In this document: in pieces, positions 1 to 7,236 of the stretch | Numbering within the stretch: the first letter of the stretch is position 1 | Layout: each line of letters starts with the position of its first letter | Assembly (NCBI RefSeq): GCF_000422645.1 | Contig: NZ_AUGL01000002.1 | Location: 62,001-126,000 of the forward strand | Direction: 5' to 3' | DNA from: Ferrimonas futtsuensis DSM 18154 | GTDB lineage: Bacteria > Pseudomonadota > Gammaproteobacteria > Enterobacterales > Shewanellaceae | Length of the DNA stretch: 64,000 nt | Notes under the pieces: generated by a model | What the model saw: the letters and a program-made list of their open reading frames with translations, nothing else | The model's database searches: none | Told to the model about the DNA's origin: nothing | Position numbers and translations under genes: made by a program

Positions 1-36
1 TTGGCGGTCTGATAGTGGGTGTATCGGCAGCATATA

Positions 37-56
37 GAATCACTTGAGAGTGATTC
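37..56. repeat. Perfect inverted repeat, 8-bp arms
   Basis: GAATCACT (37-44) and AGTGATTC (49-56) are perfect reverse complements around a 4-base loop. No T-run follows on either strand, so it is not an obvious intrinsic terminator. It may be an operator or an RNA hairpin of a gene outside the window. Confidence 0.5.
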
Positions 57-147: not shown

Positions 148-885
148 TTAATTGGGGCACTTCAAATATTGAATGTAGTAATTGAGATGGCGGATATCCA
201 CCAGGGAGACCAGGGCGTCCAGATCCTCGATGGCTAAAGTCCCGTATCTCTTTCTAATCATCTCCTGGCCAATCAACTCTTTTATGACCGAGATGCAATA
301 TTGTTTGGTGACACCGGAAAAACTGGCGATGTCGTCATATTTTAACGGCGCACTGCGAAATTCAATTTCGTGGCCATAAAGAAAGATGATCACCAGGCAC
401 ATAATAATGTGCTGCTTTTTATCCAGCAGGCTGCTCATCACCGACCAGTCGCGGGTGGCGGCGTTGCTGATCTCGTAACGCCGCAGGCAGAACTCAAACA
501 GGGCTTCTGACTTGCTGGCCAGTTTGTGCAGACAGTTTCCTGGAACGGCTCTGATCACCGTGGAGTCCAGGGCCACATAGCTTTTGTTGAGCCAGGGGTT
601 GTTGCCGTTGGGAGCATGACTGGTGAGCAGGGTCTTGGGCAGCCAGATGCCCGTCACTTTGCTCAATTCAGCCGGATAGTCCACCACCTCTTTGAGCACC
701 CCTCTCTCTACGTAATTGAGGGCCGCCTCCTGAAAGCTGGGCAGGAAGCAGTCTCCTTTTCTTAGCTCTATTAAACCGCTGTGATTCAGGATTTCGGACG
801 CGAGGAGGGAGTCGAGGCCGTTTCTTATCAGGAGATCCGTCAGGGAGTCCGGCGGTGGGGACCACGAAAAGCTGGGGTTCTTCAT
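148..885 (-). CDS. Crp/Fnr-like transcriptional regulator
   Basis: Predicted 245-residue DNA-binding regulator. The C-terminal quarter reads as a winged helix of the Crp type: a stretch like YDDIASFSGVTKQYCISVIKE (helix-turn-helix), then a GxLxI/EDLDAL wing and last helix. The N-terminal part has the length of a cyclic-nucleotide-binding fold but no clear phosphate-binding cassette, so the ligand is unknown. I chose ATG at 885; an in-frame TTG at 921 would add 12 residues but has poor ribosome-binding context. It is divergent from the flagellin-protease gene, and the shared 426-bp gap holds two palindromes. Regulation of that neighbour or of itself is possible but is inference. Confidence 0.6.
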   Translation of the reverse strand: MKNPSFSWSPPPDSLTDLLIRNGLDSLLASEILNHSGLIELRKGDCFLPSFQEAALNYVERGVLKEVVDYPAELSKVTGIWLPKTLLTSHAPNGNNPWLNKSYVALDSTVIRAVPGNCLHKLASKSEALFEFCLRRYEISNAATRDWSVMSSLLDKKQHIIMCLVIIFLYGHEIEFRSAPLKYDDIASFSGVTKQYCISVIKELIGQEMIRKRYGTLAIEDLDALVSLVDIRHLNYYIQYLKCPN

Positions 886-970
886 CGATGTTGTCTGCTC
901 AACCTTGATTATTTTCTGCAACCCCAGGGCGCTACAACCGGGTCACAATGTCAATTATTGTCGTCAAAGT

Positions 971-1311: not shown

Positions 1312-3108
1312 GTGCGAATAGCCACCAATACGACATCGATGTTCACCAGCCAGTTGCTGCAGCGCAGTAGCAGTGGCGTGGCAGCGTCGATGGAGAGGAT
1401 GTCGTCTGGGCTGAGGATTAATTCGGCCAAGGATGACGCTGCCGGGTTGCAGATCACCAACAGGCTAACGTCCCAAATTAACGGATTGAATGTCGCCATC
1501 AAGAATGCATCTGACGCCATCTCTATGGCGCAAACTGCAGAGGGTGCCGTTCAGGAGGTGACCGAATCTCTGTTTCGAATCCGCGACCTGAGTCTGCAGG
1601 CTGCCAATGGTTCAAACAGTGATGAGGACAGGCAGGCGCTCCAGAAAGAGGCGGCAGCGCTGCTGGAGGAGATTGACCGCACCAATACCACCACCTCTTT
1701 TGGTGGCAATAGGTTATTCAAGGAAACCGACGCTTCCCGGGTAGACCCCATCGAGAGGGAGATTGTCAGTAAGCTTGCCAACAGCTGGCTGAAAGAGTCT
1801 GAGGAGTTGATTAAGGACAAGCTGGGAATTGATGGCAAGAACACCACGCTGAAGATCGACCTCGAACACATGGACGGTCCCGGCGGAACGGCGGCAAGTG
1901 TCTCCTCTCTGGTGGCGGGCAGTACCGCCTACAATCAGGTGATGACCATTGACCTGGATGACTTCGGTGCTGGGGCAGGAGGTGGCAGCCTGGAACTGGA
2001 TGAAACCATTCTCCACGAGATGGTGCACGCCATTCAGGGGGCGAACTTCGATCAATGGGGAAGCACGGCGACCTGGTTTAAAGAGGGCAGCGCCGAGGTG
2101 ATGCGAGGGGCCGACGACCGGCTCAGTGCGGACATTGCCAATCATGGCGGCGGTGCCACCGGTATTGGTGCCATCTGGACTCAGCTCAAGGCCGATGTGG
2201 CCAGCACGGCCAACCCAACCACCGGCATTGGCACTGCCGCTGCTTACTCAGGCGGCTACGTGGTCAACCGCTACATCGACCACGAACTGGGTGGCGGCGG
2301 ACTCAAGGCGGTCAACACGGCCATGGCCGGTGGTGCCACCCTGGATGCGGCACTCAATACTGCGTCCGGTGGGCGCTGGGGGAACGTCAATGCCCTGTTT
2401 GCCGAGCTCGATGGCGCAGGCGGTGGCGGTGCCGCGACCAAGTTTGAGGAGTTCATCAACACCCAGATGGATCTCACCAATGCCGATAATGGCTCGCTGG
2501 CCGGTTTCGATGTGACCGGTGCCGGCCCCGAGTTGGACAACGTCATGCAGGGTGTCACCGGAGATGGCAGTGGTGCGGCCTCCTTCGACGAGTACTTTGT
2601 GTCCGGTGACGACGACAACGACGGCGGCGACTTTGATCCCGGCAGCTACGATCCCTCGGCCATTGGGGCGACGGAAGTTGCCCTGGCGGACTACGCTCCG
2701 GAAATTGGAGAGGGAGAGGGGGGGTATCAGATTGCGGCTCAGGTGGGCGCCAATGCCAACGAGGAGATCACCTTCAACCTCGGCAGTTTTGGCACCAAGT
2801 ACCTGGGTCTGGACAGAATCGATCTGACCAAGGACCCTCAGTCTGCCATTGAAGCGGTGGATGATGCGCTTAAGATTGTGGACTCGTCGCGGGCCTCTTT
2901 GGGGGCAACGGTGAATCGCCTGGAGCACACCATCGCCAACCTGACCAACATCACCGAGAACACGTCGGCCAGCCGTTCCCGCATTCGGGATACGGATATG
3001 GCAAAGGAGTCCTCCTACCTGGCCAAACAGCAGGTGTTGCAGCAATCCGCCTCGGCGATGCTGGCTCAGGCCAACCAGTTACCCTCGGCGGCATTGTCGT
3101 TGCTGTAG
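1312..3108 (+). CDS. Flagellinolysin: flagellin with inserted zinc metallopeptidase
   Basis: Predicted 598-residue proteolytic flagellin. Residues 1-140 are a normal flagellin D0/D1 region ending in the typical SFGGNRLF turn. Residues about 505-598 are the C-terminal D1/D0 region with the usual [10 protein letters not shown] motif and coiled heptads. Between them, in place of the variable surface domains, sits a gluzincin peptidase: H235-E236-x-x-H239, then E258 exactly 18 residues later in a KEGSAE context. An Asp-rich segment at about 433-442 could bind calcium. Assembly into the filament would display many protease copies on the cell surface, as described for flagellinolysins (peptidase family M9-like). 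GTG start with GGGGG just upstream. Transcribed from the FliA promoter at 1246-1272. No chaperone or other flagellar gene is adjacent. Confidence 0.92.
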
Positions 3109-5247: not shown

Positions 5248-5278
5248 AAAAGGCCGCATCTGCGGCCTTTTCTGTTTT
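5248..5278. terminator. Bidirectional terminator between hda and the lipoprotein gene
   Basis: AAAAGGCCGCA (5248-5258), loop TC, TGCGGCCTTTT (5261-5271), then more T. It serves hda on the plus strand and the convergent lipoprotein gene on the minus strand. Confidence 0.9.
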
Positions 5279-7172
5279 AGTTGTTTTCCACCTTCCAGTC
5301 TGGCGCTTTGCCCAGATGGCGATGTCGTCCCTCTTTAGGTGAAAGCAGGGAGGGCATCGCCTGAACCCGCGGTGCCGAGGTGGCATCTTCCAGGGTCAGG
5401 TTTTGGGCCCAGCTCTCGCCACTGCGCATCTGGGTGGGGCTGGGCAGGCCGGAGATCAGCTCATTGGCATTCAATGAGGGCATCAGTTCGGTGAGCACCA
5501 GGTCCAGCCTGGGCAGAATCGCCGTTTCACCGATGCGGCCTCGCTGGCCCCAGTCGACAGTGATGTTGGATGCGGTGACCTGCTCAGGCAGGTCGGTCAC
5601 CGCCACATCCCGACGGATCTCATACCTGTGCATCATCATCGCCTCTTCGAACAGCATCGCCAGGTCCTCTCTGGAGGTGGAGTAGCTGTAATCATCGTTG
5701 GCCCGGTCGCCGGAGAAGAAGGCGGTGATGTCATCGGGCTGGTAGCTCTTCTGCAGGGTGGTGGCCTTACTGCCTCTGAACTGCACATCGGCCAGGGCCT
5801 TCATCTCGCTGCTCTGCAAAGGCAGGTCCCGGGTGAGATGGTCGGAGATCAACGCGTTCTGTTCGCTGCGCTGATAGAAGGCCTGCAGCAGGGTTGAGGT
5901 GTTGATGCTGTCCCAGGTGGTGCTGGGGAAGAAGTCGTTGGCATGGGCCAGTTCGTGATAGAGCAGGCTGGCCAGATCCGGTTCCAGGGCGCCCAGGCTA
6001 CGGCTGATTTCCAGATAGGGGGGGTAGTAGACGCTGGCATAGCTGTTGCCTTTCACGTAGCGCCAGGGAAGCAGGAAGCTCAGATCGCTGCCGAAGCCGC
6101 TGCGAAAGTCCGGATCTTCATTGATGGTGGCCATCTGCCAGGGTGATTGCCACAGATCCGATGGATCCAGATAGATGGCGCCGGTGGCGACCCAGTAGAA
6201 CGAGGGGCGCACATCGGAACTGATCACCACTGCGGTCACGGCCCCGAGCAAGCGGCGGAAGTCGCCATGGGTGTCACGCAGCTCCAGGAAGCTCTTGAAG
6301 GCATCCCCCATCCAGGGGTGGGAGACCACCACCCGCTCCATCACCTGATCCACCGTGGGGTTGGGGTGACTCTGACCCAGCAGTGGCAGAGTCTCTATGC
6401 TGCAGGGGGCGGAGGAGGCCAGTTGAGTCGAGTAGACACAGCGTCCCAGGGCATCGGCCCAAGGGGAGTCAGAGTTCCAGGCGATCACTCGGGTCAGGGG
6501 AGAATCAAACAGGGCGCCCGAGACAGGGGAGGGCTCGGTGGTGACCAGGACATAGGCGTTGTCACCGACATTTTGGCCATTGTCACTGGCGCTGGCGCTG
6601 ATGCGAATCAGGGTATCCTGGGTCACGACGGGCGCGGTAAAGGTCAGCAGTTCTGGGTCGCTGTTATCCATGTCGCTGATGCCGGGGCCGGACTCTTGCT
6701 GCCAGCTGATATTCTGCAGGGGCTGGTTGCGATCACCGCTGCGACCCAGGCGCATGGAGACCCGCCCGCCGGAGGGCACCACCTGGTCACCCCGGATCCG
6801 CGTTGCCGCCACCGATTCGGTGGTGCTGATGTCCACAGGAGCTTGGATGACATTGCCCTGGGTGTCGGTAATGGTCAGCTGAAATTCATAGAGGGTTGCC
6901 TGGGGGGCCTCGAAGGCCGCCATGGGCGATCTGGGGTTGGCGATGTTGACCGCCGGACCCGAGACTTGGGACCACTGGAAGCTGAGATCCCGGCTGGGTA
7001 CGCCATCGACGGTGGCCACCAGGGCAACACTGCCGTCGACCGCCGGGCTCAGGTTCAGCCTCAGCTGCGATGAGGGAGGAAGCGGCGTGGGATCAGGGGA
7101 GGAACCTCCGCCTCCTCCGCCACAGGCGGCGAGCAGAGTTAAGGCGGTCAGTGCAATCCAGTGCGTCTTCAT
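5277..7172 (-). CDS. Putative zinc-metalloprotease lipoprotein with Ig-like domains
   Basis: 631-residue exported lipoprotein of unknown role. A signal peptide ends in the lipobox LAAC followed by a Gly-rich, Pro-rich linker, giving a lipid-anchored N-terminus. Residues about 35-220 look like two Ig/PKD-type beta domains (FQWSQVSGP and ISWQQESGPG patterns are typical). The C-terminal half has an HExxH motif (H406-E-L-A-H410, in LLYHELAHANDFF), suggesting a zinc peptidase. I could not place the third ligand with certainty. ATG at 7172 has GGGAGAGAG upstream; an earlier in-frame ATG at 7199 would spoil the signal peptide. Confidence 0.65.
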   Translation of the reverse strand: MKTHWIALTALTLLAACGGGGGGSSPDPTPLPPSSQLRLNLSPAVDGSVALVATVDGVPSRDLSFQWSQVSGPAVNIANPRSPMAAFEAPQATLYEFQLTITDTQGNVIQAPVDISTTESVAATRIRGDQVVPSGGRVSMRLGRSGDRNQPLQNISWQQESGPGISDMDNSDPELLTFTAPVVTQDTLIRISASASDNGQNVGDNAYVLVTTEPSPVSGALFDSPLTRVIAWNSDSPWADALGRCVYSTQLASSAPCSIETLPLLGQSHPNPTVDQVMERVVVSHPWMGDAFKSFLELRDTHGDFRRLLGAVTAVVISSDVRPSFYWVATGAIYLDPSDLWQSPWQMATINEDPDFRSGFGSDLSFLLPWRYVKGNSYASVYYPPYLEISRSLGALEPDLASLLYHELAHANDFFPSTTWDSINTSTLLQAFYQRSEQNALISDHLTRDLPLQSSEMKALADVQFRGSKATTLQKSYQPDDITAFFSGDRANDDYSYSTSREDLAMLFEEAMMMHRYEIRRDVAVTDLPEQVTASNITVDWGQRGRIGETAILPRLDLVLTELMPSLNANELISGLPSPTQMRSGESWAQNLTLEDATSAPRVQAMPSLLSPKEGRHRHLGKAPDWKVENN

Positions 7173-7236
7173 AGGCTCTCTCCCATAGGGGGTTAACATG
7201 GGTGCAGGTGGCCGCCCTGGCCTGTCCGTACCCTTT

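Follow-up and report, generated by a model that had tools for sequence, protein, structure and literature searches.

What would a flagellin with a protease built into it do for the bacterium that carries it, and in which filament would it sit? These questions are raised by the gene at positions 1312–3108 (forward strand, as are all features of this gene given below) of a 64,000-nucleotide stretch of the Ferrimonas futtsuensis DSM 18154 genome (contig NZ_AUGL01000002.1, positions 62,001 to 126,000; this whole stretch is called "the window" here). The genome (G000 below) amounts to 4.30 Mb in 39 contigs. The gene is a single open frame (598 codons, starting with GTG) behind a ribosome-binding-site-like AAGGGGG at 1301–1307, and its product matches the NCBIfam equivalog model NF033876.2, "flagellinolysin", over residues 110–530 with 288.9 bits (cut-off 205). 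Judged by its sequence it is a flagellinolysin (FlaMP), a member of a family already known (Eckhard 2017, 2020; M101 of MEROPS in the naming of PMC7643111) and not a new kind of protein; the identification made in an earlier note, which had proposed a protein-family search as its check, was right. We think it very likely that this protein is a minor flagellin of the late, sigma-28-dependent genes, which copolymerises into the filament and holds outward a zinc peptidase that cuts extracellular proteins. The interpretation given in that note is supported. The sequence itself shows the gene architecture, the intact catalytic residues, the family membership, the promoter sequence and purifying selection; transcription by sigma-28, export, assembly, zinc binding, proteolysis and the biological target are inferred.

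Both flagellin halves are intact, as had been claimed, and flank the peptidase domain on either side. The N-terminal D0/D1 arm (residues 1–138, positions 1312–1725) matches Pfam Flagellin_N (PF00669; residues 3–139, 129.1 bits, E = 1.5e-37) and the C-terminal arm (residues 505–598, positions 2824–3105) matches Flagellin_C (PF00700; residues 513–598, 87.4 bits, E = 8.3e-25), both above cut-off. By homology, the protein would leave the cell via the flagellar export apparatus, and its D0/D1 arms would copolymerise it as a minor subunit with FliC, most likely in the polar filament. It might instead be a flagellin-armed secreted protease that passes through the flagellar channel and is released as a monomer, with little incorporation into the filament. 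Campylobacter offers a precedent, since it secretes the flagellin FlaC, which is not an enzyme (PMC7643111), and the location of the gene outside the fliC cluster is in keeping with such a role, but neither arm is truncated and both are conserved, their ratios of nonsynonymous to synonymous substitution (dN/dS, rough values that are given in full below) are only 0.020–0.050, and the Clostridium haemolyticum member of the family was found in filaments (PMC5595980), so we regard simple secretion as unlikely.

The peptidase domain occupies residues 139–392 (positions 1726–2487) and is recognised from the NF033876 match, the domain model, the fold comparison and dN/dS. It contains the motif HEMVH at residues 235–239 (2014–2028), followed by Glu258 (2083–2085), the presumed third zinc ligand, in the motif EGSAE. 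In an alignment of seven members (the Ferrimonas protein, one MedPE gammaproteobacterium, three Colwellia, Spongiibacter and Sulfuriflexus) residues H235, E236, H239, E258, G259, A261 and E262 are all invariant. The flagellinolysin motif, HExxH and a third zinc-ligand Glu with Ala three positions after it (EGxA), is thus present (HEMVH, E258, A261), and its catalytic residues are kept in all five Ferrimonas copies. By analogy with such families we take His235 and His239 to be zinc ligands and Glu236 to be the general base; the central domain is predicted to be a zinc-binding peptidase of the gluzincin type. A chance occurrence of HExxH is excluded, because a curated family model recognises the domain as a whole and the residues are kept in its relatives. 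The earlier note had stressed a Glu exactly 18 residues after HEMVH. The spacing is as described (Glu258 is 19 positions past the second His, with 18 residues between), but it is no family signature and is not diagnostic, since the gap is 17, 18, 19 or 23 residues among the 17 rows compared. Upstream of HEMVH, D214 (in IDLDDF) is a candidate for the calcium-site Asp; most of the aligned rows share it, whereas L069 lacks it.

The same note had called the domain "M9-like", which holds for a relationship in fold but not for membership of the family. The Pfam peptidase matches between the arms are below threshold (Peptidase_MA_2, 18.9 against 32.4 bits; M9, PF01752, 14 bits against a gathering cut-off of 26), and we therefore reject assignment to peptidase family M9 and claim only the fold relation. 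A phmmer search with residues 140–512 found no match among the PDB sequences up to E 10. Because flagellins filled the structural (VIA-align) list of the full-length model, the domain was folded separately; Foldseek comparison of this domain model with the PDB gave 132 matches at E ≤ 10, with M1 aminopeptidases at the top and none reaching E ≤ 0.001. The domain differs from the M9 bacterial collagenases (ColT, 4ar9, and the Grimontia collagenase, 8jt1) in falling below the Pfam M9 cut-off and in being embedded in a flagellin, and from the M30 peptidase lugdulysin (7bb8), to which it is 12% identical in the alignment, in its flagellin arms.

For two species pairs we calculated dN/dS by the NG86 method; synonymous distances are high (0.6–0.8), so the ratios are rough. 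Between G000 and G012 they are 0.033 for the peptidase domain, 0.020 and 0.025 for the arms and 0.047 for residues 393–475; between G005 and G009 the corresponding values are 0.045, 0.050 and 0.025, and 0.103. These ratios indicate that purifying selection acts on the peptidase domain, which is not drifting, and that constraint is weakest in the linker region. They also bear on whether the folded, exposed domain could be a binding or structural surface (an adhesin) that catalyses hardly or not at all. It diverges from most other members of the family, and the surface domains of flagellins are variable, in many cases with no activity assigned to them (PMC5595980, PMC7643111), but the retention of the catalytic residues in all five Ferrimonas copies, the domain's low ratios (0.033–0.045) and the in vitro activity of two family members (PMC5595980, PMC7643111) make such a role improbable. 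The outward-facing gluzincin peptidase would instead cut extracellular proteins or peptides at the moving cell surface, perhaps as a means of feeding or to clear away matrix or foreign filaments; protein feeding, degradation of matrix or host tissue, and attack on foreign flagella have been raised as possible uses in PMC5595980 and PMC7643111.

A sigma-28 (FliA) promoter-like box, TAAAG-N14-GCCGATA, lies at 1246–1271, 40 nt ahead of the start codon. It is the only match to its pattern in the window, and none of 100 shuffled windows contains the pattern; the strict pattern matches seven times in the 4.3-Mb genome (the reversed control pattern not at all), and the other six matches precede fliC and the genes for FlaG (PF03646), FlgM (PF04316), FlgO (PF17680), MotY (PF18393) and a VC2046-family protein. 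All five Ferrimonas flagellinolysin genes are preceded by the box, with a weaker -35 element (TCAAG) in G009 and a change of the last -10 base in G001. Outside the genus a relaxed pattern finds a box before the gene at 8 of 14 flagellinolysin loci and none at 6 (two of the eight are identical in sequence, and the L068 box is about 130 nt from the start). Since it carries the type of box found before late flagellar genes, the flagellinolysin gene very probably belongs to the late (sigma-28) regulon, although it is remote from the flagellar clusters; its promoter suggests that it is transcribed by sigma-28, and it would then be expressed together with the other late genes. The earlier remark on the gene's distance from other flagellar genes holds for the structural genes (fliC is on contig C19), but has to be qualified by its own sigma-28 box and by the sigma-28-like box of its divergent neighbour, described below. 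As for the VC2046-family protein (L154, G000:C10:11881), which has no assigned function, its place behind a consensus sigma-28 box is a hint that this family has a flagellar role.

Five proteins encoded in the genome match Flagellin_N: FliC and an FlgL-like protein on contig C19, a second FlgL-like protein on C6, the flagellinolysin, and a 278-residue orphan flagellin on C2 (L011:6747–7580) whose best NCBIfam model is LafA (322.6 bits, below the cut-off of 365). On C19 fliC is accompanied by fliD-, flgK- and flgL-like open reading frames (ORFs; assigned by eye). With the arms of FliC, those of the flagellinolysin share 60% (N-terminal) and 66% (C-terminal) identity, against 47% and 46% with the C2 orphan; in view of this identity and of the promoter, the polar FliC filament is its most likely home. 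There is also a second, lateral-type flagellar cluster on C6; the 14 kb covered there (L012, G000:C6:196001–210000) contain homologues of flgE-I, flgK, flgL, fliD, fliK and fliA (by eye) but no flagellin gene, and the FlgL-like protein gives the sole Flagellin_N match on that contig. This would leave room for the flagellinolysin as the filament protein of this second system, but with a LafA-like flagellin present on C2, arms closer to the polar-type FliC, and a promoter that matches those of the late genes around fliC, we find this improbable. No strict sigma-28 pattern precedes the LafA-like gene.

The long Gly- and Asp-rich linkers had been thought unusual. Their richness is real, with 20% Gly and 13% Asp in residues 366–480 against 3–6% Gly and 5–7% Asp in the arm regions (residues 1–138 and 481–598), and their unusual character is partly explained by an insert common to a sub-group of the family. 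This Asp-rich insert (GDDD....DF, ending in TEVA) comprises about 28 residues, roughly 428–455 (positions 2593–2676), and is modelled with low confidence and no confidently predicted structure. It is present in 9 of 17 aligned rows (the five Ferrimonas proteins, two of the three from Colwellia, and MedPE with an identical twin) and missing from the other 8 (L149 and L152 were left out of the alignment); being confined to these rows, it is a lineage feature.

Flagellinolysin matches above the cut-off occur in 5 of 14 Ferrimonas genomes. Across the whole family (152 genomes) the same five are the only ones, with none among the remaining 138, and there are 10 in an order sample of 394 genomes (two of them Ferrimonas) and 7 in a class sample of 369 (one of them G000). 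As a separate observation, G000 also encodes an M9 collagenase family protein (PF01752, E = 5.5e-80; L013:2467–4257, contig C22), and sub-threshold matches, counted without individual inspection and all falling on the same part of the flagellinolysin model, occur in 10 of the 14 Ferrimonas genomes. In a tree of the flagellin arms (91 rows, made up of the best 80 among the listed matches of a scan and the order-sample loci, and omitting L069_FlaMP, L079_flagellin and two FlgL) the flagellinolysins of Ferrimonas, two Colwellia, MedPE and its twin, and genome G207 form one supported group (99/96); the flagellinolysins from order family f11, Spongiibacter and Sulfuriflexus fall outside it. A single clade for the 16 flagellinolysins, as expected of one origin of the fused gene, is rejected in this tree (approximately unbiased test, p-AU 0.007; long branches that come together within it are flagged). 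Because of those long branches and the way the rows were selected, this is only suggestive of more than one origin; PMC5595980 has already reported transfers of the entire gene as well as cases in which just the domain was inserted. A tblastn search of the peptidase domain against 72,556 plasmid records gave three matches, all in Bacillus velezensis (NZ_CP097785.1, NZ_CP097781.1 and NZ_CP069392.1; 27% identity, 76% coverage) and all annotated as hypothetical proteins. Ferrimonas is not mentioned in the main texts of PMC5595980 and PMC7643111, whose supplementary tables may list it, and none of the papers found on Ferrimonas with flagellin, judged by titles and the openings of abstracts, deals with this subject.

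Four Ferrimonas species have the gene between uraA and a DUF2066 gene that is followed by hda; in G001 it is at a different place, where its neighbours resemble, by eye, an SGNH hydrolase gene and an ABC transporter. We retrieved the locus from six of the nine Ferrimonas genomes without flagellinolysin. The computed distance from uraA to the DUF2066 gene is 361 nt in G008, 170 nt in G002, 47 nt in G004 and 133 nt in G011, while the spacing is about 4.0 kb in G007, with CobW-type GTPase-like ORFs between, and about 2.1 kb in G006, with a TetR-like ORF between (both by eye). Given these other ORFs in G007 and G006, the interval is a variable site that is not dedicated to flagellinolysin.

A small divergent ORF, whose product looks coiled-coil-like by eye, sits between uraA and the flagellinolysin gene, with its upstream end at 1–47 (reverse strand) of the window. 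The mechanically called frame (L009:11539–12033, reverse strand) reaches window position 33, but the likely start (giving 149 amino acids) is the ATG at L009:11988, immediately outside the left end of the window, because a sigma-28-like box, TCAAG-N14-GCCGATA, occupies 22–47 (reverse strand). Three of the four species that have the locus carry the ORF with its own sigma-28-like box (G000, G012 and G005), and in G009 the match is interrupted by a stop codon. A search of the genus (E ≤ 0.01) matched the gene in all five species with flagellinolysin (the G001 copy is on another contig), weakly inside a 460-codon frame of G002 (E 0.003), and as a stop-containing scrap in G008, which has no flagellinolysin; it was not found in the remaining seven genomes. 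As the G008 scrap lies between uraA and the DUF2066 gene, this species probably lost both genes, and the presence of flagellinolysin in 5 of 14 Ferrimonas species together with this likely loss scar shows turnover within the genus. The small protein matches no Pfam family above cut-off (best Med9, 18.2 against 26.9 bits) and no NCBIfam model at E ≤ 0.01; we claim no likeness to FlxA-type flagellar proteins. One might imagine that the two genes form a sigma-28 module whose members are retained or lost jointly, the small protein acting as a partner of the flagellinolysin (an inhibitor that silences the protease until export, an export aid or a cofactor on the filament surface), but we hold this doubtful. 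The flanks of the 14 flagellinolysin loci outside the genus (8 of them only about 1.5 kb long) contain no match to the small gene, so that to date the pairing is specific to Ferrimonas, an argument against such a module being general.

Between these two sigma-28-box genes lies a gene for a Crp-type helix-turn-helix protein (148–921, reverse strand; PF13545 at 2e-05, below cut-off), present in two of the four species with the locus (L009 and L042, not L041 and L043). The window also encodes, 2.2 kb from the flagellinolysin gene (5277–7199, reverse strand), a lipoprotein-like protein of 640 amino acids with a PKD domain, its sole Pfam match, and a second HExxH (HELAH, by eye). It has counterparts at 60–93% in four related species, and is possibly an unannotated metallopeptidase.

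Only two flagellinolysins had been characterised as of PMC7643111 (2020), where their cellular role is described as unclear. Like FliA(H) of C. haemolyticum (PMC5595980), the Ferrimonas protein has flagellin arms around a gluzincin metallopeptidase in the hypervariable region, with HExxH, the third Glu and the Ala three residues on, in a genome that has a second, ordinary flagellin as well; it differs in the gap from His to Glu (18 residues against 24 by the numbering of PMC5595980, His237 and Glu262) and in lying outside a flagellar cluster, whereas the C. haemolyticum gene is inside one (PMC7643111). HgrFlaMP of Hylemonella gracilis (PMC7643111) is also from a Gram-negative bacterium, has the same architecture and is encoded outside the flagellar cluster, but its neighbours are a NUDIX hydrolase and a MarR regulator instead of upp-uraA and DUF2066-hda, and its activity has been demonstrated, whereas that of the Ferrimonas protein is predicted from its sequence. 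What the present locus adds to the known family is the probable wiring into the late flagellar regulon, the patchy presence within one genus and the paired small gene. In this marine host the sigma-28 box is conserved, close relatives differ in having or lacking the gene, and there is a candidate for a partner, which would make Ferrimonas a clean comparison for the role of a flagellar protease.
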